Assembly: GCA_019247605.1 (NCBI GenBank)
Contig: JAFBAS010000127.1
Location: 1-64,000 of the forward strand
Source of the DNA: Hyphomicrobiales bacterium
Lineage (GTDB): Bacteria > Pseudomonadota > Alphaproteobacteria > Rhizobiales > Beijerinckiaceae
Length of the DNA: 64,000 nt
Direction: 5' to 3'
Shown piece after piece: positions 11,891 through 39,771 of this stretch. How positions within the stretch are numbered: position 1 is the first letter of the stretch; each line of letters opens with the position of its first letter. The notes under the pieces are model-generated. The model did no database searches, was not told the DNA's origin, and was given only the letters and a program-made list of their open reading frames with translations. Position numbers and translations under genes: made by a program.

Positions 11891-12862
11891 ATGAAGCATC
11901 AGGCACCTGATCGGGCGCCCATCGCCCCACGCGTGTTCACCGGCGAGGTGGGCGATGTCGACCTTCGTTTGCTGCGCGTTTTCATGGCGGTTGCCGATCA
12001 TGGCGGCTTCGCGGCCGCGGAGGTCGCGCTCGGTAAAAACAAATCGGCGATCAGCATGGATATTGCCAATCTCGAGACGAGGTTCGGCACGAGGCTGTGC
12101 CAGCGCGGCCGTGGCGGTTTCTCGCTGACACCCGAAGGGCAGGCCATCTATCTCGCAGCGTTGCAGCTCTTCACGGATATCGGCGCTTTCCGCGACAAGG
12201 TCGCGAGCGCCACGAGGAAGGTGACTGGCCGCGTCACCCTGGTCATGGTCGACAACATTGTCTCGGTGGCGGAACGGCCCTTGGCACAGGCGCTTGCCCG
12301 CTTCTGCAAGGACTATCCCAACGTCGACCTTACTCTGGTCTCTGCGCCGGGCAGCGTTGCCGAGCGACAGGTGCTGGAAGGAACTGCCGATCTCGGCATA
12401 TCGGTGTTGCCGCGTGCCATGGCGGCGCTCGAGGCCATCCCGCTCTTCACCGAAGAGGCGCGGCTTTATTGCGGTCGTGGGCACCCGCTATTCGAAGCGG
12501 CGAATGGCCGCGTCACTGAGGAAGCGCTCGCCGAACATCAGGTCATCGGACCGAGCGCCTCGGACGATCAGCGCTTTTCCTCGTCTCGGGCCGCATGGAG
12601 GAGCAGCGCCAACGCGGAGGCGCTCGATGCCCGCGTGCTTCTTGCTCTTGGGGGTGGAATGCTCGTGTTTCTCCCCCCGCATTATGCCCAACGCTGGGTG
12701 GAGGAAGCCAAGTTGAGGCCGATTGGCGGCAAAGCATTCACGACCACAAATATGTTCCATCTGTTCTTCAAGAAGACGGCCCAGCTCGGCGCGGGGGCCT
12801 CGCATCTGCGTCGCATCCTGCTTGACGCTTTCGAGGCGGGTGCGCCGCGTCAGGCTGGCTGA
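11891..12862 (+). CDS. LysR-family transcriptional regulator
   Basis: 323 residues from ATG 11891 (a TTG 12 bp upstream is in frame). The winged HTH is at about 20-80: DVDLRLLRVFMAVADHGGF, then KSAISMDIANLETRFGTRLC, and RGGFSLTPEG in the wing. A LysR-type effector-binding domain (about 105-305) follows. It is divergent from the ABC importer operon across about 225 bp, the normal arrangement for a LysR regulator of its neighbour, so it probably controls the importer and oxidoreductase. Inducer unknown. The gene overlaps the end of the convergent isomerase gene by 13 bp. Confidence 0.92.
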   Translation: MKHQAPDRAPIAPRVFTGEVGDVDLRLLRVFMAVADHGGFAAAEVALGKNKSAISMDIANLETRFGTRLCQRGRGGFSLTPEGQAIYLAALQLFTDIGAFRDKVASATRKVTGRVTLVMVDNIVSVAERPLAQALARFCKDYPNVDLTLVSAPGSVAERQVLEGTADLGISVLPRAMAALEAIPLFTEEARLYCGRGHPLFEAANGRVTEEALAEHQVIGPSASDDQRFSSSRAAWRSSANAEALDARVLLALGGGMLVFLPPHYAQRWVEEAKLRPIGGKAFTTTNMFHLFFKKTAQLGAGASHLRRILLDAFEAGAPRQAG

Positions 12863-13707
12863 GCCGCGCTTGTCCGCACTCGTTGCCAGATCGCGCGCGC
12901 GTGACGCGCGAGCACGAGCGATTCGGCCTCCCGGTCCGATAGCTCGCGTCCGTCAGCGCCGGTCAGCGCGTATTCCGGCGGTCCTAGCTCGCAAAGAAAT
13001 ACAGCTTCCGCCTCGGGTCCCGAGCGCGACGCAAAAGAGCGAAGACCCTCTTCCCACCAGCCGAGGAAAATCTCCAGCCATTTGCGGTTTTGCGGGAATG
13101 CGAGCGGCAACTGGATTTGGCCGCGGGCCGCGACGCGGCCTTGAAAGGAATCGGCCCTCGCCAATACCTCGGAGACCATGCCCTGCAACTCCGACGACGG
13201 CGGGCAAGGCATCTCGCGATCGACCACGTAATGGGAGAGATCGGCCGAAAGTCGCATGCTCGGAATGGCTTCGAGGAGCTGCAAGGTCGCGAAAAGATCA
13301 TTGGTGATGCAATTGCGATGTGTCTCGAACTGGATGGACACCTTTTCCTCGTCCGCGATGGCAAGCCAGGCTTCGATCACCTCGATCATCTCAGCCACGC
13401 GGATCGGCATGACTTGGCCGACCACGATGACAAAGGGGGAGTCGATCTCCTTCGCAAAGCGCAGCGCCGGGCGCAGGTCCTCGATTGTCCGCGGAAAGGC
13501 GATGACGAGGCTTCTCAAGCCGCTGCGTGCATAGTTAGGAGCGGCCGCGCGCGCTGCTTCGAGGCTCATGGCGCCGAAATCGATTGCCATGCCATCGAAA
13601 CCCGCAGCCTTCGCGCGATCGAACCTCTCCTCGACAGAGAGCTCGGGGGTGCCCGGAATACGACGCTCGGTTGCCCAGAGCGACTGGTAGACTAAAAGCT
13701 TACCCAC
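12850..13707 (-). CDS. TIM-barrel sugar phosphate isomerase/epimerase-like protein
   Basis: 285 residues if started at GTG 13707, which overlaps the desaturase stop; the longer frame to 13911 lies inside the desaturase and has no family character there. Strand-helix segments fit the AP-endonuclease-2/xylose isomerase-like barrel: KAAGFDGMAIDFG, FVIVVGQVMPIRV, VSIQFETHRNCITND (a likely metal Glu), MRLSADLSHYVVD (Asp/His) and the late AVFLCELGPPEYAL (Glu). Last gene of the aldolase-Rieske-desaturase operon. It may isomerise a sugar acid or a ring-cleavage product; the substrate is unknown. Confidence 0.8.
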   Translation of the reverse strand: MGKLLVYQSLWATERRIPGTPELSVEERFDRAKAAGFDGMAIDFGAMSLEAARAAAPNYARSGLRSLVIAFPRTIEDLRPALRFAKEIDSPFVIVVGQVMPIRVAEMIEVIEAWLAIADEEKVSIQFETHRNCITNDLFATLQLLEAIPSMRLSADLSHYVVDREMPCPPSSELQGMVSEVLARADSFQGRVAARGQIQLPLAFPQNRKWLEIFLGWWEEGLRSFASRSGPEAEAVFLCELGPPEYALTGADGRELSDREAESLVLARHARAIWQRVRTSAAQPA

Positions 13708-14683
13708 GAGCAGGCCCGCCAACGATCGGCTTGCCGCCGATCCAGGCGCGCTCATCGGGGTAATCGGCTTCACTCCTGCCGCCGGAGAGCGCTCGAATGA
13801 GCGCGCGCTGAAAGGCGACATAGCCCATCTCATGAGGGACCACGCCTCGTTCGGTGAACATCGCCTTGTGCAGCGCCGGAAGCTGGTGGAAGGGTACGCC
13901 CGGAAAGGCATGGTGGGCGGTGTGGTACTGCATGTTCCAGCATAGCCAGCGCATCAAAGCATTGGTCCGCGTGCTTCTCGTATTCTCGAGAATGTTGTCG
14001 GAGTGCTCGAGGCCCAAATGCTCGATCGTGTTCTGGAGCTGATGAGTGAACTTCATCAACACCATGGGTGCGAGCCAATAGATCACGGCGATGACGCTCC
14101 CTGTGGCTAAAGACAGGGCTGCGATGATCGCATATCCCGCCACGTGCCAGCGCGCCTCGCCAATCACATCGGCTTTGCGTCGCTCGGGAATGTAGGTCTC
14201 GGTGACGATCCCGAGCGCGAAACGCAGAATGCGAGCGATGCGGGTGTACCAATAGGTCGGACCGAAGAACCACAGAAGATAGGCACGAAGTGTATAGGGT
14301 GCGCGCAGAAGCTCGCCGTCCTGGTCCCAATCCTGGGTGTAGCGGTGATGGGCGAAATGCTGGATCTGATCGAAATCGCGCGGGTAAAAAAGCACGAAGC
14401 CGAAGAGGCGGCCGAAGAACTCGTTGAGCCCTTTGGTCTTGAACACGGTCCAATGGCTCATCTCGTGCTGGCCGGCATAAAGGAAATTGATGAGAGTGCC
14501 CTGAACCATGAAGGCAGGAACGCACCACCAGGTGCCCAGCGTAAGCCAAAGGGCCGTGGTCGAGAGCGCGATCGCGGCCAGATGCGAGCCGAGCTGCAGG
14601 AATCCCGCCACATCCGACTTCGCGCACAGCGCGCGCAGGCGCGCGGGCTCGATGAGATCGCGCCTGACGAACACCTCATCCAT
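13700..14683 (-). CDS. Membrane fatty acid desaturase/hydroxylase-family protein
   Basis: 327 residues with the histidine boxes of the membrane di-iron desaturase superfamily: HEMSH at about 73-77, HFAHHRYTQD at about 109-118, and HTAHHAFP near residue 245. Hydrophobic pairs flank them (LAAIALSTTALWLTLG; YAIIAALSLATGSVIAVIYWLAP). Family members desaturate or hydroxylate acyl chains, alkanes or small substrates such as trimethylamine-like compounds, using O2. Its neighbours (class II aldolase, Rieske oxygenase, isomerase) argue for catabolism of a small molecule rather than membrane lipid desaturation, but that is inference. The isomerase start overlaps its stop. Confidence 0.88.
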   Translation of the reverse strand: MDEVFVRRDLIEPARLRALCAKSDVAGFLQLGSHLAAIALSTTALWLTLGTWWCVPAFMVQGTLINFLYAGQHEMSHWTVFKTKGLNEFFGRLFGFVLFYPRDFDQIQHFAHHRYTQDWDQDGELLRAPYTLRAYLLWFFGPTYWYTRIARILRFALGIVTETYIPERRKADVIGEARWHVAGYAIIAALSLATGSVIAVIYWLAPMVLMKFTHQLQNTIEHLGLEHSDNILENTRSTRTNALMRWLCWNMQYHTAHHAFPGVPFHQLPALHKAMFTERGVVPHEMGYVAFQRALIRALSGGRSEADYPDERAWIGGKPIVGGPARG

Positions 14684-14817
14684 TGCATTCTCCTGTGCTG
14701 CCGCGGGTTGAACTTTTCACGCGGCGCGCGTGGAAACAATTTCCGAGTTGAGAATTCAAGTTCAGCGCGGGCTGAACCGAGCGGCGATGGAGTTATGCAC
14801 CGGCGGCGAACCCGCGG

Positions 14818-15891
14818 CTATTCCGCAGCAACCCTGAGGCCACCGCCACCATCGCCGAGGGCATCGCGCACCATCCTCTGGAAGGCCTTCACCGCGTGCT
14901 CGTATTTCGGCGAGAGAGGACCGCGATCGTAAACCCCGGCATTCAGGTTGCGTTGAACACCGAGAAGGATTGCGAGGTCCTCGGTGACGATCTGTGCCGA
15001 CCAATCGGCTGAGCGCTTGTTCTCGTCGGCTTTCTCAGGCGAGACGTCCTGGAAAAAATACCAGTTGATGTGACGGATTCGGCCAGCGCCAAGCGGCTCG
15101 ATGGTGGCGATCGAACTTCCCCAATCATAGAGGTTCAGCATCAGATAGGGGAAACGGTAGAAATACAGCCCGCGGGTCAAACCGCCTTTGCGGCGTGGAG
15201 CGTAGAGGTGAAAGAAGCCCCCTTCTCGATGGACATCGATCGTGTAGCGGTCGATATCCATGGCGGCGCACAACCCCGGATGCATCGCTCTGCAGTGATA
15301 GCATTCGAGGTAATTCTCGCCATAGGCTTTCCAATCGACCTCGACCTCTCGATCGCACGTCAGAAAATGCTCCTGCGTCTCAAGCGGATAATCGGCCGCC
15401 ATCGCGTCGATTGGGCCGAGCCAGGATTTAAGATCCTGGCCGCCGCGCCTGATGCGACAGAAGACGAGCCCGCGCCACTCCTCGACGTCGATTTCGAGCA
15501 GGCCCCATTGCTTGGCGTCGAATTCCACTTCGCCGCCGAAATCGGTTGCCTTGGCGAGATGGCCATCGCGCCCATAGCTCCAGCTGTGATAGGGGCAGAC
15601 TAGGAGTTTGCCGCAGTCACCGCTTTCTTTCGAGAGGAGTGTGGCGCCGCGATGCCGACAGACATTGTGGAATCCGCGCAGCACGCCGTCATCACCACGC
15701 ATGACGAAAATCGAATACCCCGCAAGAATACCCGATACGTAATCGCCTGGTTTGCCGACCCGCGCCGACCAGGTGAACAGGCCCCAATTCGTCGCGAAGA
15801 TGGATTGCCGCTCGCGTTCGAAGTGTTGCGGGTCGCGGTAAAGCGAGGCCGGCATCGTCCAGTCGAAGCGTTGTTCGGCGTTCGTCGGCAT
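14818..15891 (-). CDS. Rieske non-heme iron ring-hydroxylating oxygenase, alpha subunit
   Basis: 357 residues from ATG 15891, chosen because GAGGAGG lies just upstream; the frame runs 63 codons further but into the aldolase gene. Rieske [2Fe-2S] domain: Cys78-Arg-His80 and Cys99-Pro-Tyr-His102. Catalytic domain with the mononuclear iron site motif NYLECYHCRAMHP, giving His199 and His204; the third carboxylate ligand lies near the C-terminus. The bridging residue position reads Glu196 within this motif. No ferredoxin, reductase or beta subunit gene is adjacent, so electrons must come from elsewhere. It stands between the aldolase (10 bp upstream) and the desaturase. Relatives act on aromatic acids or quaternary amines. 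Confidence 0.9.
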   Translation of the reverse strand: MPTNAEQRFDWTMPASLYRDPQHFERERQSIFATNWGLFTWSARVGKPGDYVSGILAGYSIFVMRGDDGVLRGFHNVCRHRGATLLSKESGDCGKLLVCPYHSWSYGRDGHLAKATDFGGEVEFDAKQWGLLEIDVEEWRGLVFCRIRRGGQDLKSWLGPIDAMAADYPLETQEHFLTCDREVEVDWKAYGENYLECYHCRAMHPGLCAAMDIDRYTIDVHREGGFFHLYAPRRKGGLTRGLYFYRFPYLMLNLYDWGSSIATIEPLGAGRIRHINWYFFQDVSPEKADENKRSADWSAQIVTEDLAILLGVQRNLNAGVYDRGPLSPKYEHAVKAFQRMVRDALGDGGGGLRVAAE

Positions 15892-15901
15892 TTCTGCCTC
15901 C

Positions 15902-16663
15902 TCACTCGCGATAGGACGGATCGATCTTGTCGAGCATGCGCAGATGCGCCGCCCATTCGAGGTCGACCTCTTCATTGTCGAGTTCGGCGCCGTCATATTG
16001 AGCAGCGGTCTTCTCGCACACCTCGCGAGACGGCAGCACGAGCTCGGAGCCCGTCGCTTGTGCGGCGAGCTGTACTTCACAGACCCAATTCAGGTAATAC
16101 ATGAGCTGAAACGCCTCGGCGACACTGCGACCGACCGTCAATAGACCGTGATTGCGCAAGAGTAAGGCGCGGTGATTGCCGAGATCGGCGATCAGGCGCT
16201 GGCGCTCATCGAGATCGCTGGCGATCCCCTCATATTCGTGGACGCCGACCCGTCCATAGAACTGCATGGCCATTTGGGTCAGCGGGAGCACGCCCTCCTT
16301 CAGGCAGGAAACCGCCATGCCGGCCTTGGTATGGGTATGGATGACGCAAGCGGCGTCCTGACGCGCCATGTGAACGGCGCTGTGGATTACGAATCCTGCG
16401 CGGTTAACCGGATGCGGCGAGGCGTCGACCTTTTGGCCCTGGACGTCGATTTTGACGAGCGATGAAGCGGTGATCTCCTCCCATCGCCACCCATAAGGAT
16501 TGATGAGGAAATGGCCGGGCTCACTAGGAACGCAGGCGCTTGAATGGGTGTAGATGAGGTCGGTCATCCTGAAATGCGCAAGCAGCCGATAGCAGGCGGC
16601 GAGATCGACCCGCTGCCGCCATTCGGCGCCCGCGATCTTTGCCGATCTCTCCTGGATGTTCAT
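15902..16663 (-). CDS. Class II aldolase/adducin-family protein
   Basis: 253 residues, the normal size for the family. Metal-binding and structural motifs: IYTHSSACVP, the pair of histidines in VIHTHTKAG, the NHALLLRNHGLLTVG-type segment (here NHRALLLRNHGLLTVG) carrying the third His, and the terminal helix region. Members are zinc-dependent aldolases or decarboxylases on sugar phosphates or related acids (fuculose-phosphate aldolase type). It is the first gene of the four-gene minus-strand operon. It likely handles an aldehyde or keto-acid product of the pathway; substrate unknown. Confidence 0.88.
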   Translation of the reverse strand: MNIQERSAKIAGAEWRQRVDLAACYRLLAHFRMTDLIYTHSSACVPSEPGHFLINPYGWRWEEITASSLVKIDVQGQKVDASPHPVNRAGFVIHSAVHMARQDAACVIHTHTKAGMAVSCLKEGVLPLTQMAMQFYGRVGVHEYEGIASDLDERQRLIADLGNHRALLLRNHGLLTVGRSVAEAFQLMYYLNWVCEVQLAAQATGSELVLPSREVCEKTAAQYDGAELDNEEVDLEWAAHLRMLDKIDPSYRE

Positions 16664-17207: not shown

Positions 17208-17819
17208 TCAAGAGTAGCTACTGGGCTGCTCCCTCAGGCGAAGCAACCGGATGCCGGTCACGGCCGCCACGATTGGCGCCACGGTGGCCGCCCCGATCAG
17301 GATCGGCTCGAGCCAGCTCAGCCAGGCGAATACCGCCATCAAGTAGAGCGCATCATCCGGGTCGAAACCCCAGCGTCCTTCATAGGCGCGCGTGAGAGGA
17401 GGGCTCAGCCTTTCCAACAGCTCGGCCCACCACATGCAAAGCAGCAAGGAGCCACCCGCCAATAGGCCGAGAAGGATCGACCATTGGCCGAGCCAAGTGT
17501 CGCGAAGTCCCACTCCGACCGCAACGAAGAAGGCTGTGTTGACCACCATGTCGGTATAGTAGTCATATCGATGCCCGCTTGGGCTCATCATGTTGCCGAT
17601 CCGGGCCAACTCGCCATCCGCCCTGTCAAGGAGAGCGGAAAAAAGCCAAACGAAACCGCCCCAGACCATTCCATGACGGGTTCCAAGAGCGAAGCAGCCG
17701 CAGGCGATAAGTCCGGAAAGCAGTCGCAAGGTCGTCAAGTGGTTCGGCCTGATGGATGTCCCGACCAGCGGCCGAACCAGCTGGCGGGCGAGGAGATGTG
17801 ACCACGAGTCACCGATCAC
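17208..17819 (-). CDS. CDP-alcohol phosphatidyltransferase-family enzyme
   Basis: 203 residues with several membrane segments. The full family signature DG(x)2AR(x)8G(x)3D(x)3D is present: Asp68-Gly69, Ala72-Arg73, Gly82, Asp86, Asp90, within ADGELARIGN...GHRYDYYTD. Such inner-membrane enzymes swap CMP of a CDP-activated group for an alcohol, building phospholipid or phosphonolipid head groups. The start is GTG 17819, overlapping the hpnL stop by 11 bp, so the two are one transcription unit. A nucleotidyltransferase that could supply a CDP-activated head group is divergently encoded nearby. The acceptor is unknown; it is shorter than many PgsA/Pcs proteins. Confidence 0.88.
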   Translation of the reverse strand: MIGDSWSHLLARQLVRPLVGTSIRPNHLTTLRLLSGLIACGCFALGTRHGMVWGGFVWLFSALLDRADGELARIGNMMSPSGHRYDYYTDMVVNTAFFVAVGVGLRDTWLGQWSILLGLLAGGSLLLCMWWAELLERLSPPLTRAYEGRWGFDPDDALYLMAVFAWLSWLEPILIGAATVAPIVAAVTGIRLLRLREQPSSYS

Positions 17820-18813
17820 GGCATGTACCTGAAGAAGGCAATGAAGTCGTCATGCTCGCAGGCCTTGCTTCGAACCATTGCCAAGCTGCAAGGGCAGGCA
17901 CGCCGAGGACGATCTCGCGCACTCGCTTCATCAGCGACAGCGCGATCGCGACTTCCGGCGACAATCCGTACACACCACAGACGAGAATATATCCGCCCTC
18001 TTGCACACCGAGGGCGGCAGGTACCGCAAAGCCGAATGACTTAAGCGCCTGTCCGAGGCTTTCGATAACCATTCCGGTTGTCAGATCGACGTCGTGTCCA
18101 AGCAGGTGCAGCGCTACGTACACTTCAATTCCCCCGATGAGCCAGGAAGAGAAATGATACAAGGCGGCGCTCAACAGGCGCAGTGGGCGACCGTAGATTG
18201 CAATCAGCGCCGCGTGCACGCCGGGTTCCTGACCGAAATTCCAGCCGACCATGCGGCCGATTCGGATCATGCCAATCTCGACGAGATGCGCCAGCCCGGC
18301 CTGTTGAGCCACAATGAAGCCCGTCGCGGCCAGAAGCGAAATCGCGAGCACGCCCGTCATGAGCCGGGCGACGCTGCTGTCACCGGCCGTGAAAAGAAGC
18401 AATGCCAGGCCGAGCAAGGTGAAAGCGATCTGCGTCACCAATTCCACGGTCAGATCACCCACGGCGCCGGCGAGTGCTATCGAGAGTGTGACCCCGCGCT
18501 TGTGCAGAAGGCGGGCCCCCACGAACTCGCCGCCGACTTGCGCCACCGGCAAGAGGTTGTTCACTGCCTCTCGGATCCAGCGAAGCGTCAGCCATGAGCC
18601 GAAGCTCACCGTGGGAGTGGTCGAGCCCGTGACCGCACGCCAAGCGGCGCCCGAAAGCCAGAGCTGGGGAAAATGGATGAGCGCGAGCGCGGCTATTCCC
18701 AGCCCTCCTGCACGGCCGACGAGACCCAGAATGCGCCAGGCCCCATCGGTGGCCAACATCCACGCCAGCAAAACAGCGACCGCCATCGCACCGACCAGGC
18801 CACCAAGTCTCAT
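17809..18813 (-). CDS. hpnL: HpnL-like multi-pass membrane protein (UPF0104/LPG synthase TM family)
   Basis: 334 residues from ATG 18813; the frame upstream runs into the divergent gene. Seven or eight membrane segments, with the family's polar motifs RWIREAVNNLLPVAQVGGEF, SLGQALKSFGFAVPAALGVQEGGY and the late LMKRVREIVLGVPALAAW. This is the TM domain of lysylphosphatidylglycerol synthase without the catalytic domain, often thought to flip or transport lipids. HpnL members sit in hopanoid loci, as here. It overlaps the phosphatidyltransferase and shares 56 bp of divergent promoter space with the nucleotidyltransferase gene, so it may act on that product as well as, or instead of, hopanoids. 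Confidence 0.8.
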   Translation of the reverse strand: MRLGGLVGAMAVAVLLAWMLATDGAWRILGLVGRAGGLGIAALALIHFPQLWLSGAAWRAVTGSTTPTVSFGSWLTLRWIREAVNNLLPVAQVGGEFVGARLLHKRGVTLSIALAGAVGDLTVELVTQIAFTLLGLALLLFTAGDSSVARLMTGVLAISLLAATGFIVAQQAGLAHLVEIGMIRIGRMVGWNFGQEPGVHAALIAIYGRPLRLLSAALYHFSSWLIGGIEVYVALHLLGHDVDLTTGMVIESLGQALKSFGFAVPAALGVQEGGYILVCGVYGLSPEVAIALSLMKRVREIVLGVPALAAWQWFEARPASMTTSLPSSGTCRDR

Positions 18814-18869
18814 GCGCCTGCCCCATCGCGAGCGCCTTGTGAACGGTTCCAGGGTGTGACCCTGTTGAC

Positions 18870-19670
18870 ATGAGCGGCGGGACACGAGAGATCGCTTGCG
18901 TGTCCAATATCTCGGAACCCTCTGCCTGCCGGGCACTCATTCTCGCAGCAGGCGTCGGATTGCGATTGCGCAATGGGCGGCCAACCGATCAACATCTGCC
19001 CAAGGCGCTGCTGCGCTTTGGAGGGCGAAGCCTGCTTGAACGCCATCTCGACATCCTCCGGCGAGCCGGGATTCGCGACGTCACCATTGTGGCTGGTTAT
19101 CGCGAAGAGGAGATCCGGGCCGAATTGAAGAGCGGGATCGGCAGCGATTTGCATCTCGTGGTCAATCCGGATTTTGAGATGGGTAGCGTCGTCTCGTTGC
19201 ATGTGGGGCGAAGTGTGTTGCAAGGTGGCACGCCTGTCATCCTGATGGATGCCGATGTCCTTTACGATGCCCGCCTCATGGAATGCCTTTTGCACAGCAA
19301 ACACCAGAACTGTCTCCTGCTCGATCGAGACATTGAGCCGGGAGACGAGCCGGTCAAGTTGTGTGTGTCAAAGGGTCGTATCGTCGATTTCCACAAACGG
19401 CCACAAGTTCCCTATGAGTGGCACGGCGAGTCGGTCGGTTTTTTTCGATTCGATCCGGATTGCGCGGCCGAGCTCGCCCGGCGCGCCAAAGGCCATGTCG
19501 CGGCCGGTCGAACCCAGCTGGAATACGAGGAGCCGATCCGAGAAATGATCTTGTCGAGCCGGCCGGAACGGTTCGGGTATGAGGATATCAGCGGCTTGCC
19601 CTGGACAGAGATCGACTTTCCGGAGGACGTCGCGAAGGCGCAGGCGCTCTTAGGGAAGATGGCGCAATGA
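18870..19670 (+). CDS. Nucleotidyltransferase (LicC/sugar-phosphate type)
   Basis: 266 residues. The N-terminal pyrophosphorylase loop is ALILAAGVGLRLRNG with a following PKALLRFGGRSLLERHLDIL; the metal Asp lies in PVILMDADVLYD; then EPVKLCVSKGRIVDFHKRP and a closing ...LPWTEIDFPEDVAKA. The fold matches NTP transferases that make CDP-choline-, CDP-aminoethylphosphonate- or NDP-sugar-type activated groups. The partner gene for a CDP-alcohol transferase makes a cytidylyltransferase role plausible (inference). It overlaps the PhyH-type oxygenase by 4 bp (ATGA). The start could also be GTG 18900, which removes 10 residues. Confidence 0.85.
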   Translation: MSGGTREIACVSNISEPSACRALILAAGVGLRLRNGRPTDQHLPKALLRFGGRSLLERHLDILRRAGIRDVTIVAGYREEEIRAELKSGIGSDLHLVVNPDFEMGSVVSLHVGRSVLQGGTPVILMDADVLYDARLMECLLHSKHQNCLLLDRDIEPGDEPVKLCVSKGRIVDFHKRPQVPYEWHGESVGFFRFDPDCAAELARRAKGHVAAGRTQLEYEEPIREMILSSRPERFGYEDISGLPWTEIDFPEDVAKAQALLGKMAQ

Positions 19671-20449
19671 CGAGAGCACAGGAAACGAAGGAAGTTGCCC
19701 GGCATTCTCCGACGCCGGCCCAGCGCTCCGAGATGGCACGTGACGGCTTTCTTGTCGTGCGTGGTTTTTTCGACCAGGACACGGTGAAGGACCTCCTGCG
19801 CTGGACCGAAGAACTCACGGCGGCACCAGAGATCTCAGGCCGCCATTGGGTTTATCACGAAGAGAGTTTGACCGCGCCCGGTCAGCGCCTGGTGCAGCGA
19901 ATTGAGAACTTCTGTCCTTTTCATGAGCGATTTGACCGGCTGATCCGTGACGGCGCTTTGAGCCACTGGGTCGGTGCGCTGATGGGCGGTCCGGTTGTTT
20001 TGTTCAAAGAGAAAATCAACTTCAAAATGCCCGGCGGCCCCGGATTCAAGATGCATCAAGATCAGCAGGCCGGCTGGACGCGTTATGCGCCGCTCTTCGT
20101 TACGGCCATGGTGACGATCGATCGATGCACGTTCGAGAACGGCTGTCTCGAAATCGTTCCGGGGCGCCATCGCGAAGGGTTGATCGGCGAGGAATGGCGT
20201 CCGCTCCCGGAGGACGGGCTCCCGGCACAACCCCTTCCGACAGAGCCGGGCGATGTCATCTTTTTTGACTCTTTCGTGCCACATGCCTCCAAGCCAAACT
20301 TCACCGATGAACCGCGCCGTGTACTTTATTTGACGTACAATTTGGCCGAGCACGGCGACCATCGGGCTCGCTATTACAGAGAAAAGCACGCGTCATTCCC
20401 GCCCGATGTGGATCGCGACGGTTCGCAAGCTTACGTTTTTCGCGTGTAG
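19667..20449 (+). CDS. PhyH-family Fe(II)/2-oxoglutarate dioxygenase
   Basis: 260 residues. Iron-binding triad: His130-Gln-Asp132 in FKMHQDQQAGW and the distal His206 in FFDSFVPHASKPN; 2-oxoglutarate-binding Arg at about 217-218 in EPRRVLYLTYN. This is the phytanoyl-CoA dioxygenase superfamily, which hydroxylates small molecules and lipids and also includes enzymes acting on aminoethylphosphonate. It is translationally coupled (ATGA overlap) to the nucleotidyltransferase, so it probably hydroxylates the head-group precursor or the finished lipid. Cytoplasmic. The family call is firm; the substrate is not known. Confidence 0.88.
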   Translation: MTRAQETKEVARHSPTPAQRSEMARDGFLVVRGFFDQDTVKDLLRWTEELTAAPEISGRHWVYHEESLTAPGQRLVQRIENFCPFHERFDRLIRDGALSHWVGALMGGPVVLFKEKINFKMPGGPGFKMHQDQQAGWTRYAPLFVTAMVTIDRCTFENGCLEIVPGRHREGLIGEEWRPLPEDGLPAQPLPTEPGDVIFFDSFVPHASKPNFTDEPRRVLYLTYNLAEHGDHRARYYREKHASFPPDVDRDGSQAYVFRV

Positions 20450-20496: not shown

Positions 20497-21231
20497 TCAG
20501 CGCTGGGGCGTAGTCGCCGGCGATTCCACGACATTTGGCTGCCCGATCGCCTCACGCAGATCCGAGCGTCGCGTTTGGTAGTAGGCCGAGCGCGCGAAGC
20601 TGTAAAAATCGATCGACACGTCCTCGGCCTCCTTGAATTCGGAGAGCCGGACGGCCGCATCCAGGACGCCTGTGCCGACGGTTGCGCCCCAGCCAAACAG
20701 CTTGCCAAGCGCCAACCCGACCGGATCCGCCACCTCGTCCACCACAAGCCCCGCTGCATCGCGCCCCGTGGACGGTCCGAAATAGGGGAGCACAACGTAG
20801 CTGCCGGCGGGAACACCCCAGACAAAGAGAGTCTGGCCGAAATCACCGCTCTGCTGCGAAAGCCCAGCTTGCCCTGCAATATCAAAAAGACCGCCGAGGC
20901 CAATCGTCGAGTTGGTGATGAAGCGGCCAACTGTCTTTACGGCAGCGTCAATGCGCAATTGCAGCACATCGTTTGCGAAAATCCGCGGCTCGCGCAAGTT
21001 CGCGTTGAGATCATGCAAGCGGTCGTGCACGGGCCCGGGCGTGGTAGCCTTGATGATCACGGATACGGGGTGGAGCGCCGCCTGATTGGCCGCGAAGGCC
21101 ACGCGGTTGTTCTTCTCGTAGGGATCGTCGATGGGCAGCGACGCGTCCCGTGGAACGCCTGCACAGGCCCCAAGAAGAGACAGCATCGCCACGGGAATCG
21201 AGCGAAGGACCAATGTCGATAGGCGATGCAT
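20497..21231 (-). CDS. mlaA: MlaA/VacJ-family outer-membrane lipoprotein
   Basis: 244 residues from ATG 21231 (a TTG just upstream is unlikely). Lipoprotein signal LSLLGAC gives an acylated Cys. Family motifs: DDPYEKNNRVAF near the N-terminus, RFITNSTIGLGGLFDIA, and FGQTLFVWGVPAGSYVVLPYFGPST. MlaA sits in the outer membrane and extracts phospholipids from the outer leaflet. It follows hpnN by 150 bp on the same strand, and hpnM (MlaC-like) lies just beyond hpnN, so this version may serve hopanoid or mixed lipid traffic. No mlaFEDB genes are in the window. Confidence 0.92.
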   Translation of the reverse strand: MHRLSTLVLRSIPVAMLSLLGACAGVPRDASLPIDDPYEKNNRVAFAANQAALHPVSVIIKATTPGPVHDRLHDLNANLREPRIFANDVLQLRIDAAVKTVGRFITNSTIGLGGLFDIAGQAGLSQQSGDFGQTLFVWGVPAGSYVVLPYFGPSTGRDAAGLVVDEVADPVGLALGKLFGWGATVGTGVLDAAVRLSEFKEAEDVSIDFYSFARSAYYQTRRSDLREAIGQPNVVESPATTPQR

Positions 21232-21384
21232 CAACTGTCAGTCCTCTCTGCGCGCGCACAAGGCCTGATTGCGATTGATCACTTTGACGATGAGCGGATT
21301 ATCGATGGCGGGCTCACCGACTCGAATCCACGACAGGGTAGCAGACGATCGGCGCGATGACTGTCACTTTTTTGCCGCAGTCCG

Positions 21385-24009
21385 CTAGTCCCGCGGCCGA
21401 ACTGCCCGCTTGGCCGGCCTCGGCACGGAGTCGCGCTGGGTGGCCAGCAGAGCTGGTTGGAAAATGACGGCAGCCGAAAGGGTCGTCATGAGGCACAGGG
21501 CCATGAGCTTACCCATGCTCGATGTGCCTGGATGATGAGAAAAAAACAGACTGCCGAAGGCTGTCGCCGTGGCGCAAGCGCTGAAAATCACGGCACGTGT
21601 CAAGCTCGATTGCAAGAAGCTGGTTTCGCCGGCGCGCCACGCCATGATGTAGTAGATTTTGAAGGCGACACCGACCCCCAGAAGAAGGGGAAGCGCGATG
21701 ATGTTCGCAAAGTTGAACTGAAGCCCGAGGAGAACGCAGATCTCGAGCGTGGCGACGATAGCCACGAGCAGGGGCACGAGCGTCAGCGCGACATCGGTCC
21801 ATCGGCGAAGGGCGACGAACAGAATGAAGGTGATCGAGGCCAACGAGCACAGTCCAGCTTGCCAAAAGGCTTTCACGATCGTCGCAGCCGCTTCGATGAT
21901 GAAAACGGGCGTTCCACTAGCTTGCGGCGAGATGCTGCGAACAGCTTGTGAGAACCGGTACAAGGTTTCATTGTCGTTGCTGTCGCCGCGAGGCGCGACC
22001 TCGATTCTCGCTCGCCCATCGGCCGCGATCCAATCGCTTTTCAGCGAAGGAGGGAGCGTGTCGATCGTGACGGTTTCAGCCGCAAGGAGATCCCTGACTT
22101 GACGAAGTGTGATCGTGAGAGGAGCGATCAAGGCACGCTCCGCATTTTCCCGAGCCCTCGGGCTCGCCTCCTTCAGTTCCGCCAGCAGCGCGGCAAGGCG
22201 GCGAGCTTGCTTGGCTGCCGGAGTGGCGAGGTCGCCTGCGGCGCTCTGAAGGTCATGTGAGGTCTTGTCGATTGCGGCGATGGTCTCGGCAGGCGAAGGC
22301 GCAGTTTCGAGCTGGTCGGGTTCGAGCGTGTTCAGCAGGAAAAAACTTGCATCCTCGATGATGGCGAGCTTGTCGGCCTGATCGTCGGGAACGAAGCTTT
22401 GCAAGGTCAGCGCGCGCGCGACTTGCGGCAGCTGTCGCAGCTTTGCGGCAATCATCGAGGCGCTCGCAAGGTCGTTCTCGAGGACGTCGATCGTATTTGG
22501 CGTGGTATCGGGATCGCGCATCAAATCGAGAAGCGTCGAGACCGATTCCGTGTCGCGAGCGCGCAGGTCGATCGGGTTGAAATCGAAACGCAATCCTGTG
22601 AGCAGCGGCAGGCCGAGGATGGTCGCGGTAAGGGTCACCCCGACGATCCAGTTGCGCCGTTCTTCCAGGAACTGATCGAGCGGCGCGAGCGCGGCAAAGC
22701 CGACCGGCGCCTTCTCACCCGGAGGGTTGAACAAGCTGAGCAGTGCCGGAAGCAATGTCACGGTCGTGACGAAAGCAATGATGATACCGGTTCCAGCGAT
22801 GAGCCCGAGCTCGGACAAACCTCGATAGGAAGTCGGCAGAAACGAGTAGAACCCCGCTGCGATCGAAACAGCCGCGAGCAGAAGAGGGCTTGCGATCTTC
22901 TGCGCGGAGGCAAGAAGGGACGCTTTGAGCGATGGGGTCTCGTAACGTTCCGCTCGGTAGCGCACACTGAACTGAATGCCGAAATCGACGCCAAGCCCGA
23001 CGAAAAGCACCGCAAAGGCGATGGATATCAGGTTCAAGGCGCCGACCATCCACAACCCGAGCGCGGCGGTGATGACGAGCCCGGTGATGAGATTGATGAG
23101 AACGGCGACAATGATGCGGGTTTGCTTCAGCGCGAGCCACAACAGGAGGACGACGACCAGCATGGTAACGGCGCCGTTGAGGACAGCACCTTCGGCGATC
23201 GTGCCGAACTCCTCGTCCGAAAGGGCGACCGCGCCGGTGAGGCGCACCTTGACACCCTCGTCCGGCGTCAGTTTGAGCCTCGCGATCGCCTCGCGAATGG
23301 CCGCTGTGGCCTCTCCCCCTGGCTGCAGGGCGTCGTAATCGAGAACCGGTTGGATATTGACAAATCGTCGCAAATCCGAGCGCGCGGGTGGGCGGCCAGT
23401 AATCAGCTTGCGCCAAGAAAATGCCGGGTTTTCCCCTTTTGACAATTTTTCGCAGGCGTCCGCGATGGCCGCCATGGCCGGCTCGATATCTTGGAGGTTA
23501 GATTTTCCCAGGCGCACCCCTTCGAGTGCCTGCGAAAGCGTGCGCAGAACGCCGCGCAAGGTCGGATCCGCCGCCAGGGTGCCGAGGAAAGGCTGGGCGG
23601 AAATGAGTTGGGCGGTATCTCGACGTACTTCGTCGGTGCTGAGGAAAAGGATGCCGTTCCTGGCGAAGAACTCGCCGCCATCGGGTCGGCTGGCGCTTCG
23701 GATCGTTTCGGCGTGAGACGAAAGCTCTTCCACCAGCGTGTCGGCAGCCCCCTCCGCCGCTTCGGGCGTGTCGGCGTCGATCACGGCAACGATTTGGTTG
23801 GCCCTCTGGGGAAAGGCTTGATCGAGTTTGATCTCTTGCTGGCGCCAAGGCAGCGAGCTTGACAAGAGCTTGCTGCTGTCGGTGGTTATGGCGAAATGGT
23901 ACACTAGATAGCTGGCCGAAAGAACCGCAATCATCGAGAATGCGAGGAGGACCACCCAGGGATGGCGGGCGGACTGGCGTACAGCTTCTGTTATCGCAGC
24001 AATTGTCAC
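21385..24009 (-). CDS. hpnN: HpnN, RND-family hopanoid transporter
   Basis: 874 residues from GTG 24009. Two MMPL/RND repeats: a first TM, a large periplasmic loop (about 45-260), a block of five TMs with GLGVDFGIQFSVRYRAER (about 340), a second periplasmic region (about 480-690) and a last TM block with LLLGVGVAFKIYYIMAWRAG. In Rhodopseudomonas and Burkholderia, HpnN moves hopanoids from inner to outer membrane. It is divergent from hpnM across about 180 bp, so the pair can share regulation, and mlaA is downstream. Length and architecture fit the family. Confidence 0.93.
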   Translation of the reverse strand: MTIAAITEAVRQSARHPWVVLLAFSMIAVLSASYLVYHFAITTDSSKLLSSSLPWRQQEIKLDQAFPQRANQIVAVIDADTPEAAEGAADTLVEELSSHAETIRSASRPDGGEFFARNGILFLSTDEVRRDTAQLISAQPFLGTLAADPTLRGVLRTLSQALEGVRLGKSNLQDIEPAMAAIADACEKLSKGENPAFSWRKLITGRPPARSDLRRFVNIQPVLDYDALQPGGEATAAIREAIARLKLTPDEGVKVRLTGAVALSDEEFGTIAEGAVLNGAVTMLVVVLLLWLALKQTRIIVAVLINLITGLVITAALGLWMVGALNLISIAFAVLFVGLGVDFGIQFSVRYRAERYETPSLKASLLASAQKIASPLLLAAVSIAAGFYSFLPTSYRGLSELGLIAGTGIIIAFVTTVTLLPALLSLFNPPGEKAPVGFAALAPLDQFLEERRNWIVGVTLTATILGLPLLTGLRFDFNPIDLRARDTESVSTLLDLMRDPDTTPNTIDVLENDLASASMIAAKLRQLPQVARALTLQSFVPDDQADKLAIIEDASFFLLNTLEPDQLETAPSPAETIAAIDKTSHDLQSAAGDLATPAAKQARRLAALLAELKEASPRARENAERALIAPLTITLRQVRDLLAAETVTIDTLPPSLKSDWIAADGRARIEVAPRGDSNDNETLYRFSQAVRSISPQASGTPVFIIEAAATIVKAFWQAGLCSLASITFILFVALRRWTDVALTLVPLLVAIVATLEICVLLGLQFNFANIIALPLLLGVGVAFKIYYIMAWRAGETSFLQSSLTRAVIFSACATATAFGSLFFSHHPGTSSMGKLMALCLMTTLSAAVIFQPALLATQRDSVPRPAKRAVRPRD

Positions 24010-37171: not shown

Positions 37172-38602
37172 TCAACTCGCAATTTCCCGGCGCTCCCTCA
37201 GGAAACGAAAGAACTCGACGCCCTCGCGCAAGCGGCGCCTCATCATTTCGGGGCTGCGCACCATTTCACCGACGATGGATGCAATCTTCGGCGCACGAAA
37301 ATAGAAGCGGCGGTAGAACTTCTCGACGGAGTCGAAAATCTCCGAATGGGTCAGGTGGGGATAATGCAAGGGAGCGATCTGCACGCCCTCCTCGTTGACC
37401 AATTCGGCATTGGCATTGTCCAGCCAGCCCTTGTCGAGTGCCTGCTTGTAAAGGAAAGTCCCCGGATAGGGAGCCGCAAGGGAGACCTGGATGGTGTGAG
37501 GGTTGATTTCCTTGGCGAAATCGATCGTCTCCCTGATGGTTTGCGTCGTCTCGCCGGGAAGCCCGAGAATAAAAGTGCCGTGGATTACGATGCCGAGCTC
37601 GTGGCAATCCTTTGTGAAGCGCTTCGCGACGTCGACGAGCACGCCCTTTTTGATGTTGTGCAGGATTTGCTGGTTTCCGCTTTCGTAGCCGACGAGCAAC
37701 AGTCTCAGACCATTGTCGCGCATCACCTTCAATGTACTTCGTTTGACGTTCGCCTTGGCGTTGCACGACCAGACGACGCCGACCTTGCCGAGTTCCCGCG
37801 CAATGGCTTCGGCACGCGCCGCATCATCGGTGAAGGTGTCATCGTCAAAGAAAAACTCCCTGACCCCGGGGAACGCGGCCTTGGCCCAGCGAATCTCCTC
37901 GATCACATGACCGACGCTTCGAGTTCGGTAGCGATGCCCTCCCACCGTCTGCGGCCATAAGCAGAATGTGCAGCGTGATTTGCAGCCTCGCCCCGTGTAG
38001 AACGACAGGTAAGGGTGCTTGAGATAGCCGATGAAGTACTTCTTGATGTCGAGGTCACGTTTGTAAACCGGGGTGACGAAAGGCAGGACATCCATGTTTT
38101 CGAGCACCGGCCTGTCATCGTTGTGCACGATGGTGCCGTCCTTCGCTCGCCAAGATAGGCCCGCGATGGTCGACAGCTTCCGGCCCTCGGCAACCTCTTG
38201 GATCGTGAAGTCGAATTCGTTGCGGGCCACGAAATCAATGAGCCCGGAGGCCTTCAGGCTTTTATCCGCCTCGACAGCGACTTTCGCACCGATCATGCCC
38301 ACGATGAGGTCCGGTTTGACCGCTTTCATCGCTCCGACGGTCTTCACATCGCTTTCGAAAGACGGGGTGGACGTGTGCAGCACCACGAGGTCGTAGCCGC
38401 GCGCTTTCTCGATCACGGTTTCGAGACCGATTTGGTGAGGCGGAGCATCGATCAGCTTCGAGCCCTCGATCAGGGCGGCCGGCTGGGCAAGCCAAGTCGG
38501 ATACCAAAAAGAGGCAATTTCGCGCCTCGCCTGATATCGCGACCCTGCGCCCCCATCGAAGCCGTCGTAGGACGGCGCCTGCAGGAAAAGCGTTCGCATC
38601 AT
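37172..38602 (-). CDS. hpnJ: HpnJ, radical SAM hopanoid head-group enzyme
   Basis: 476 residues from ATG 38602 (ATGATG, overlapping the hpnI stop). A B12-binding-like N-terminal domain (about 10-150) with the family opening LFLQAPSYDGFDGGAGSRYQ. The radical SAM cluster motif is GRGCKSRCTFCLWPQ (CxxxCxxC) near residue 205. HpnJ converts the glucosamine-type head group of bacteriohopanetetrol into a cyclitol ether. In Rhodopseudomonas-type loci it works after HpnI and the deacetylase HpnK; HpnK is not encoded nearby here. Confidence 0.93.
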   Translation of the reverse strand: MMRTLFLQAPSYDGFDGGAGSRYQARREIASFWYPTWLAQPAALIEGSKLIDAPPHQIGLETVIEKARGYDLVVLHTSTPSFESDVKTVGAMKAVKPDLIVGMIGAKVAVEADKSLKASGLIDFVARNEFDFTIQEVAEGRKLSTIAGLSWRAKDGTIVHNDDRPVLENMDVLPFVTPVYKRDLDIKKYFIGYLKHPYLSFYTGRGCKSRCTFCLWPQTVGGHRYRTRSVGHVIEEIRWAKAAFPGVREFFFDDDTFTDDAARAEAIARELGKVGVVWSCNAKANVKRSTLKVMRDNGLRLLLVGYESGNQQILHNIKKGVLVDVAKRFTKDCHELGIVIHGTFILGLPGETTQTIRETIDFAKEINPHTIQVSLAAPYPGTFLYKQALDKGWLDNANAELVNEEGVQIAPLHYPHLTHSEIFDSVEKFYRRFYFRAPKIASIVGEMVRSPEMMRRRLREGVEFFRFLRERREIAS

Positions 38603-39771
38603 GCCTTTACGCCTTTCGATCGAATCATCGTGCCGTCGTCCTGCACCCGATAAGTCCGCTCCCCCCATGTAATCCGCCGGCCGAAAAAGCTCCACAGAAA
38701 TACTGCAAAGGAAACTAGATCGCGAATTGGAATTAAAAAGCCCCAGCGAGAAGCGCGTTCCTGAAAAGGCGCGGCCACATTTGTCCGGCCCGTGACCTGC
38801 AAAAGCATGAGCCGGCACGCGAGGGCCAGAATCGCGAGCACCGCCCCGGCCGTGGTTGCGCCTGCGGCGACGGCCAGCAACGCAAAAGGAAGAGGATGGC
38901 TTATCACCGAGCCGACATATCCAAGGGGATCGATGCTTCGAATAGTGCGCGCCCAGCGCAGTTCATGGCGCCACAATTGTAACAAGGACGCTTCGGGACA
39001 GACATGCGCCACCAAAAGCGGCGCGACCGCGACTTTGAGACCTTTGCGGCGTAGCGCGGCACCGATCGCATAATCATCGGCAAGGCAATCCGCGAAGACG
39101 GCAAATCCGCCGATCTCGTCGAGTTGATGCTTCCAGAGCGCGATCGTCGACCCTACACAAGGTGCAGCCAAACCGAATCGAACGCCGACGAGAACGCTCG
39201 GCAGGAAATGCGTGTCAATTCCAAGCGCCGACAACCCCGACCAAAATCCGGTCAGCGGCAAACCACGATAGAGGCAGGTCACGCCACCGACACCGGGTTG
39301 CTGAAGCATCGCGGCAACGCAGAGAAGATAATCCGGATCAACGGAGATATCGCTGTCCGCCACGATAATGCAAGGGTGCCGAATGGCTCGCGTCATATTG
39401 ACCAGGTTCGATACCTTCGAGTTCGTTCCATGCACCGTCTGGTCGACGATCACATCCATCTGTTGGTGTGGGTACAAATCCCTGAGGTGCTTCGCGACCG
39501 CGACGCCTTCATCGGTGGGATCCTGCACGCCGAAGACGAGTTGAATCGCGGCTGGATAGTTTTGATTACAAAGGGTTGCGAGATTCGAGAGGAGGGCCGG
39601 CTCCGCCCCCCTCAGCGGTTTGAGAACAGTGATCGGGGGCGCCGCGGCGAGCTTCGGCCTTCGTTCTCTGGCGAACTTCACACACGACCACACAGCGCAA
39701 AGCAAGTACACGCATCCAAGGGTCGCCAGCGCCATGCAGACCAAGCCCGTGATCCACATCATCAGAGCCAT
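38599..39771 (-). CDS. hpnI: HpnI, hopanoid glycosyltransferase (ceramide glucosyltransferase-like)
   Basis: 390 residues. One N-terminal membrane segment (ITGLVCMALATLGCVYLLCAV), then a GT21-type domain: ITVLKPLRGAEPALLSNL, VADSDISVDPDYL (D-x-D), and the (Q/R)xxRW-like HELRWARTIRSIDP. Two or three membrane segments follow. HpnI adds N-acetylglucosamine to bacteriohopanetetrol. It is first in the hpnI-hpnJ pair, with overlapping stop and start. About 470 bp of non-coding DNA precede it. Confidence 0.93.
   Translation of the reverse strand: MALMMWITGLVCMALATLGCVYLLCAVWSCVKFARERRPKLAAAPPITVLKPLRGAEPALLSNLATLCNQNYPAAIQLVFGVQDPTDEGVAVAKHLRDLYPHQQMDVIVDQTVHGTNSKVSNLVNMTRAIRHPCIIVADSDISVDPDYLLCVAAMLQQPGVGGVTCLYRGLPLTGFWSGLSALGIDTHFLPSVLVGVRFGLAAPCVGSTIALWKHQLDEIGGFAVFADCLADDYAIGAALRRKGLKVAVAPLLVAHVCPEASLLQLWRHELRWARTIRSIDPLGYVGSVISHPLPFALLAVAAGATTAGAVLAILALACRLMLLQVTGRTNVAAPFQERASRWGFLIPIRDLVSFAVFLWSFFGRRITWGERTYRVQDDGTMIRSKGVKA

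Follow-up and report, generated by a model that had tools for sequence, protein, structure and literature searches.

A predicted phosphonolipid gene cluster of lichen Nostoc brings together a CDP-alcohol transferase, a 2-oxoglutarate (2OG)-Fe(II) oxygenase, an NTP transferase, pepM (phosphoenolpyruvate (PEP) mutase), ppd, an aminoethylphosphonate (AEP) aminotransferase and hpnL (PMC5987646, 2018); the same paper, which bases its drawing on Yu et al. 2013, also shows a homologous Burkholderia cluster. Here we analyzed a 64,000-nt stretch of DNA (the window; contig JAFBAS010000127.1 of assembly GCA_019247605.1, Hyphomicrobiales bacterium) in which four genes at 17208–20449 code for a CDP-alcohol transferase, an HpnL family membrane protein, a nucleotidyltransferase and a PhyH-type oxygenase. 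The locus shares with the Nostoc and Burkholderia clusters the CDP-alcohol transferase, the 2OG-Fe(II) oxygenase, the NTP transferase and hpnL. In contrast, those clusters include pepM, ppd and the AEP aminotransferase, while the window's genome is without PepM and has its AEP transaminase, PhnW, in a degradation locus outside the module. The first-pass annotation had proposed a lipid head-group module not previously described as a set: the genes do form one conserved module, with an activating enzyme likely of the AEP type, but the claim of an undescribed set is contradicted by the Nostoc cluster.

Two other systems resemble the locus in part. The Lic pathway (LicC and LicD) likewise acquires a small zwitterionic phospho-compound externally and activates it with CTP, yet the window module has a CDP-alcohol transferase and HpnL where LicD would be. 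In Roseomonas, phosphonate and hopanoid genes are linked; PntC, HpnL, the CDP-alcohol transferase and a PepM-less form are not named in the portion of that paper cited here (PMC8776678). New, as far as we checked, are the PepM-less form paired with AEP catabolism, the quantified hopanoid association and a separate HpnL clade.

On balance, the sequence evidence favors reading the four genes as the downstream half of an AEP lipid pathway, with imported AEP serving lipid synthesis as well as catabolism. The PntC-type enzyme (18870–19670) would convert CTP and AEP to CMP-AEP, from which the CDP-alcohol transferase (17208–17819) would move the phosphonate to the hydroxyl of a membrane lipid. The PhyH oxygenase (19667–20449) may hydroxylate the head group at C1, probably giving 1-hydroxy-AEP, before or after transfer, and HpnL of the module-type clade (17809–18813) may carry the product to the other side of the inner membrane, or act as partner of the transferase; onward travel to the outer membrane is conceivable. 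In most relatives the same genes stand with PepM-Ppd-PhnW, which would make AEP. The window's genus, having no PepM, would draw AEP from its surroundings and split it between PhnWAY catabolism and lipid. If so, genome surveys keyed to PEP mutase would overlook organisms that build imported AEP into their membranes.

The nucleotidyltransferase and its partner enzymes

A profile built from 26 orthologues of the nucleotidyltransferase matched PntC of T. denticola (Tde-PntC, 6pd1) at 4.8e-28, ahead of LicC (6.7e-18) and inositol enzymes (IPCT, 4e-14). The structure model (pLDDT 88.9) aligned best with PntC (6pd2; Z 29.8, 2.1 Å over 237 residues), followed by LicC (Z 25.9) and IPCT-DIPPS (Z 24.7), and Foldseek agreed with this ranking. 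PntC thus outranks LicC by sequence profile and by structure, and on the same two measures we ruled out a housekeeping sugar pyrophosphorylase, the alternative named in the first-pass annotation. The window enzyme differs from Tde-PntC, the nearest solved sequence and structure (PMC6697681), in being stand-alone; the two are ~24% identical. R32, K45 and K176 of the window enzyme align with the mechanistic residues Arg15, Lys25 and Lys153, and mutating any of these in Tde-PntC drops activity below 10% (PMC6697681). Two residues lie near the AEP amine in Tde-PntC: Glu196 corresponds to E220, while Glu104 is replaced by Asp (D127). Judging from sequence and model, the protein is likely a PntC-type cytidylyltransferase with AEP or hydroxy-AEP as the head group.

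The partner enzymes retain their catalytic motifs. In the CDP-alcohol transferase the motif D65xxD68G69xxA72R73...G82xxxD86xxxD90 is invariant in 21 homologues, D90 nearly so, and the nearest folds are AF2299 and PIP synthases. The Fe and 2OG ligands of the PhyH oxygenase (H130xD132, H206, R217) are invariant in 16 homologues. Its best NCBIfam match, the PhnY-type methylphosphonate hydroxylase (NF052437), reached 173.8 bits, below the cut-off of 500. PhyH fills the oxygenase slot in Alphaproteobacteria. In family f100, which does not belong to the window's class, a single operon holds the CDP-alcohol transferase, a HalD-like 2OG-type enzyme, HpnL, PntC, PepM, Ppd and PhnW in this order; that a 2OG-type oxygenase not orthologous to PhyH stands in this operon supports the oxygenase step. 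1-hydroxy-AEP appears among the abbreviations in PMC5987646. In Nitrospira loci (e.g., L054:10362–11816) the CDP-alcohol transferase bears an N-terminal domain of ~260 aa that matches no Pfam model and adjoins a stand-alone PntC, an arrangement that recalls IPCT-DIPPS fusions.

AEP genes in relatives and in the window's genus

We compared 80 loci from other species, counting any listed gene inside the fetched stretch (~10 kb). PepM, Ppd or PhnW was present in 66 of the 80, a CDP-alcohol transferase in 58, HpnL in 42, PhyH in 23 and a hopanoid gene in 25, counts that are affected by many short contigs and by over-representation of Nitrospira. In the 28 closest loci the corresponding numbers were 21 for AEP genes, 22 for the CDP-alcohol transferase, 22 for PhyH and 18 for hopanoid genes. 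In one genome (G483) the set occurs in two parts, CDP-alcohol transferase-HpnL-PhnW beside hpnN and a separate Ppd-PepM-PntC-PhyH. We also observed, at L019:8149–9825 and in most PepM-bearing loci, PepM fused to a second, different NTP transferase domain beside the stand-alone PntC; fusion of a nucleotidyltransferase domain to Ppm enzymes is reported to be common (PMC6697681).

Within the window's genus (G000, the window's genome, and G001, G002 and G003) the module is well conserved. A search of 100 relatives detected the nucleotidyltransferase in the three other genus genomes (68–74% identity) and in 0 of 56 other genomes of the family. All four genes are kept in 4/4 genus genomes at 60–83% identity and in the identical order mlaA-[PhyH-NTP / HpnL-CDP-OH], so that close relatives do have the neighborhood in common. 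The ratio of nonsynonymous to synonymous substitution rates (dN/dS) against genus relatives was ~0.05–0.2 for all four genes, with HpnN and MlaA similar; these values are rough, as some pairs approach saturation at synonymous sites. The four genes are under purifying selection. In the PntC tree, the genus is joined with its own members at 100/98 support and with one metagenome-assembled genome (MAG) at 99/95, and is nested (99/97) in a 25-row alphaproteobacterial clade; in most of the remaining members PepM adjoins the gene, but one further genome of the clade, an Acetobacteraceae MAG (L015), also lacks PepM. The PntC-PhyH-CDP-OH set nearest to that of the genus lies on a contig filed under Solirubrobacterales, Actinomycetota (L014), likely reflecting misbinned DNA or recent transfer.

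The window's genome was searched family by family. No PepM over the cut-off of 319.55 was found in G000–G003 (best matches 115.6, 128.2, 121.4 and 54 bits, respectively), including G001, which is 100% complete in three contigs; the earlier remark that PEP mutase is missing here holds for the whole available genome sequence. We defined strong carriers in a phylum sample of 398 genomes (397 without the window's own) as those with a nucleotidyltransferase score of at least 255 bits, a line set only after the score gap had been seen: seven genomes including the window's own qualify, and all others score at most 168. Each of the other six carries PepM; two have it on a different contig.

At the same time, true PhnW is present in all four genus members. 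The AEP degradation locus of G000 contains PhnW (459 bits, cut-off 400.8), PhnA (530.6, cut-off 407.55), a phosphonoacetaldehyde dehydrogenase (797, cut-off 635.65) and a DMT-type permease; its order is identical in G001 and G003, and G002 has a contig-cut version. PhnWAY is an established route of AEP breakdown (PMC8316502). No Ppd match was found in the stretch around PhnW, the part of G000 searched for it. Together, the lack of PepM, the PhnWAY locus and the purifying selection suggest that imported AEP probably feeds the module; on the simplest reading, the cells would import AEP and spend part of it on lipid.

HpnL, hopanoids and the lipid acceptor

The membrane protein at 17809–18813 passes the curated HpnL cut-off (TIGR03476, 267.9 vs. 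195.65 bits) and is the sole HpnL in the window's genome at E ≤ 1e-15; no relative was found among PDB sequences. In the HpnL tree, the alphaproteobacterial HpnL proteins of PntC loci stand apart from those of hpnIJ(K)L loci, the window's clade being supported at 97/94. The window's HpnL groups close to the HpnL proteins of Acidisphaera and a second member of the Acetobacteraceae, in agreement with the PntC tree. PntC and HpnL therefore seem to share a common inheritance, and the genus probably gained both from outside its family. We rejected a borrowing of HpnL from a native hpnIJKL set, given its grouping with the Acetobacteraceae module proteins. As hpnJ and hpnI are present (37172–39771) and the genome has no other HpnL, the module copy might serve both roles. 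A 2025 paper lists the functions of hpnA, hpnB and hpnL as unestablished and does not mention phosphonates (PMC12583986); an HpnL clade that accompanies PntC and a CDP-alcohol transferase would offer a direct, testable role for HpnL. Second HpnL copies elsewhere in the family (L192, L193, L194, L196) sit outside any hpn cluster and away from CDP-alcohol transferase and NTP transferase genes, that of L194 near a guanylate kinase-like gene.

HpnL tracks squalene-hopene cyclase (SHC) in 30 of 31 genomes of the phylum sample; in the only HpnL-positive, SHC-negative genome (G489, L201:5365–8705) HpnL lies near a distant NTP transferase. SHC is also present in all seven strong carriers vs. 50/398 genomes overall, or, with the window's own genome excluded, in 6/6 vs. 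49/397 (p = 2.7e-6); four of the six belong to one family, and counting by family gives p ~0.002. Among carriers found by homology, SHC occurs in 44/58 and HpnH over its cut-off in 44/58, and some of those lacking either are probably incomplete MAGs. These numbers, the hopanoid genes in 18 of the 28 closer loci and the position of the module next to the hpn cluster in the window's genus all suggest that the acceptor could be a hopanoid polyol, e.g., bacteriohopanetetrol, giving a phosphono-hopanoid. For Roseomonas, where a hopene cyclase is linked to PEP mutase, a terpene-phosphonate was likewise suggested in 2021 (PMC8776678). Against this, the linkage may merely reflect two lipids of the outer membrane, and SHC is found in only 5 of 22 weak carriers. 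Moreover, the nearest folds of the transferase use CDP-diacylglycerol or inositol phosphates, acceptor specificity being unreadable from the protein, and no description of a phosphono-hopanoid was found in the literature searched, which left out most subscription journals. The data are compatible with the hopanoid being either acceptor or fellow lipid of the same membrane. We regard a hopanoid acceptor, which would be a variant of the AEP lipid pathway, as a tentative possibility. The full combination, in which imported AEP would be activated by PntC, transferred to a hopanoid polyol, hydroxylated and handled by a dedicated HpnL in a cell without PepM, seems unlikely.

Competing explanations and layout of the locus

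Several points weigh against AEP as the substrate. The absence of PepM may mean that the substrate has changed; the PhnWAY locus shows no linkage with the module; and no AEP importer over cut-off was found in G000 (PhnD 54 bits vs. 112, phnS2 202 vs. 392.75). The Asp at the Glu104 position is the residue LicC carries there and leaves AEP vs. phosphocholine unsettled by sequence, although E220 matches Glu196. PepM-less homologues ~45% identical to the nucleotidyltransferase pair with a LicD-like protein. All four enzyme activities, the AEP uptake, the order of steps, the role of HpnL and the lipid acceptor are, moreover, what we infer. The module could be intact but, after loss of PepM, activate a different small phospho-compound, be it phosphocholine, phosphoethanolamine or some other phosphonate, and put it on a lipid, a reading that LicC as second-best structural match would also fit. 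We find this rather doubtful. The Asp is invariant across the family, PepM-linked members included, and is therefore no marker of a substrate switch (nor is it proof of AEP); the genus is nested only shallowly among mostly PepM-linked PntC proteins and has a full AEP degradation locus. The LicD-like pairing was observed at L008:101–2316 (G096), and a similar one at L009 (G061); both genomes are of the same order and lack PepM and SHC. In L008 the nucleotidyltransferase is followed by a protein that looks LicD-like by eye (GSLLGAVREKGALLDWEDDIDI), which suggests that this activation step supplies a glycan transferase there.

An inositol-type (IPCT/DIPPS-like) pair of nucleotidyltransferase and transferase making an inositol phosphate lipid is very improbable: the IPCT/DIPPS fusion is among the NCBIfam matches of both proteins, but at 78.8 and 30 bits, respectively, it stays far under the cut-off of 580, PntC is clearly nearer by profile and structure, and AEP genes are the neighbors in relatives. 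Hardly any credence attaches to a decaying remnant of a larger transferred phosphonate cluster, which the missing PepM of most relatives and the confinement to one genus of the family might suggest, given four open frames with intact catalytic motifs, the low dN/dS and the retention in all four genomes.

As the first-pass annotation described, the four genes are open reading frames arranged in two overlapping pairs, and all four families exceed their Pfam cut-offs. On the minus strand, the CDP-alcohol transferase (PF01066, 46 bits vs. 22) overlaps by 11 bp with HpnL (LPG_synthase_TM, 68.7 vs. 33.4); on the plus strand, the nucleotidyltransferase (NTP_transf_3, 57.8 vs. 27) overlaps by 4 bp (ATGA) with PhyH (PF05721, 103.4 vs. 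22). Between the chosen starts of the divergent pairs lies a 56-bp gap (18814–18869). The annotated divergent promoter space is borne out as a gap, but both starts are uncertain, since the HpnL frame stays open upstream as far as 18936 and residues 1–15 of the nucleotidyltransferase are unconserved and modeled with low confidence; no match to a sigma-70-type promoter consensus was found in the 56 bp.

To the left, genes for a TIM-barrel protein, a fatty acid desaturase-like protein, a GbcA-like Rieske oxygenase and a class II aldolase lie on the same strand at 12850–16663. A wider module including them was rejected, as they had no matches among the 80 loci and none near the CDP-alcohol transferase gene in G001. 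To the right, the noted neighbors mlaA and hpnN are in place: the MlaA lipoprotein (20497–21234, minus strand, PF04333) is a conserved neighbor across the genus that we do not count as part of the module, and the HpnN hopanoid transporter (21385–24009, minus strand; NF052374, 1228.9 bits vs. 1100) begins the adjoining hpn cluster, which continues with an HpnM-like gene, dxs, hpnA to hpnE and shc, then hpnH, hpnJ and hpnI.

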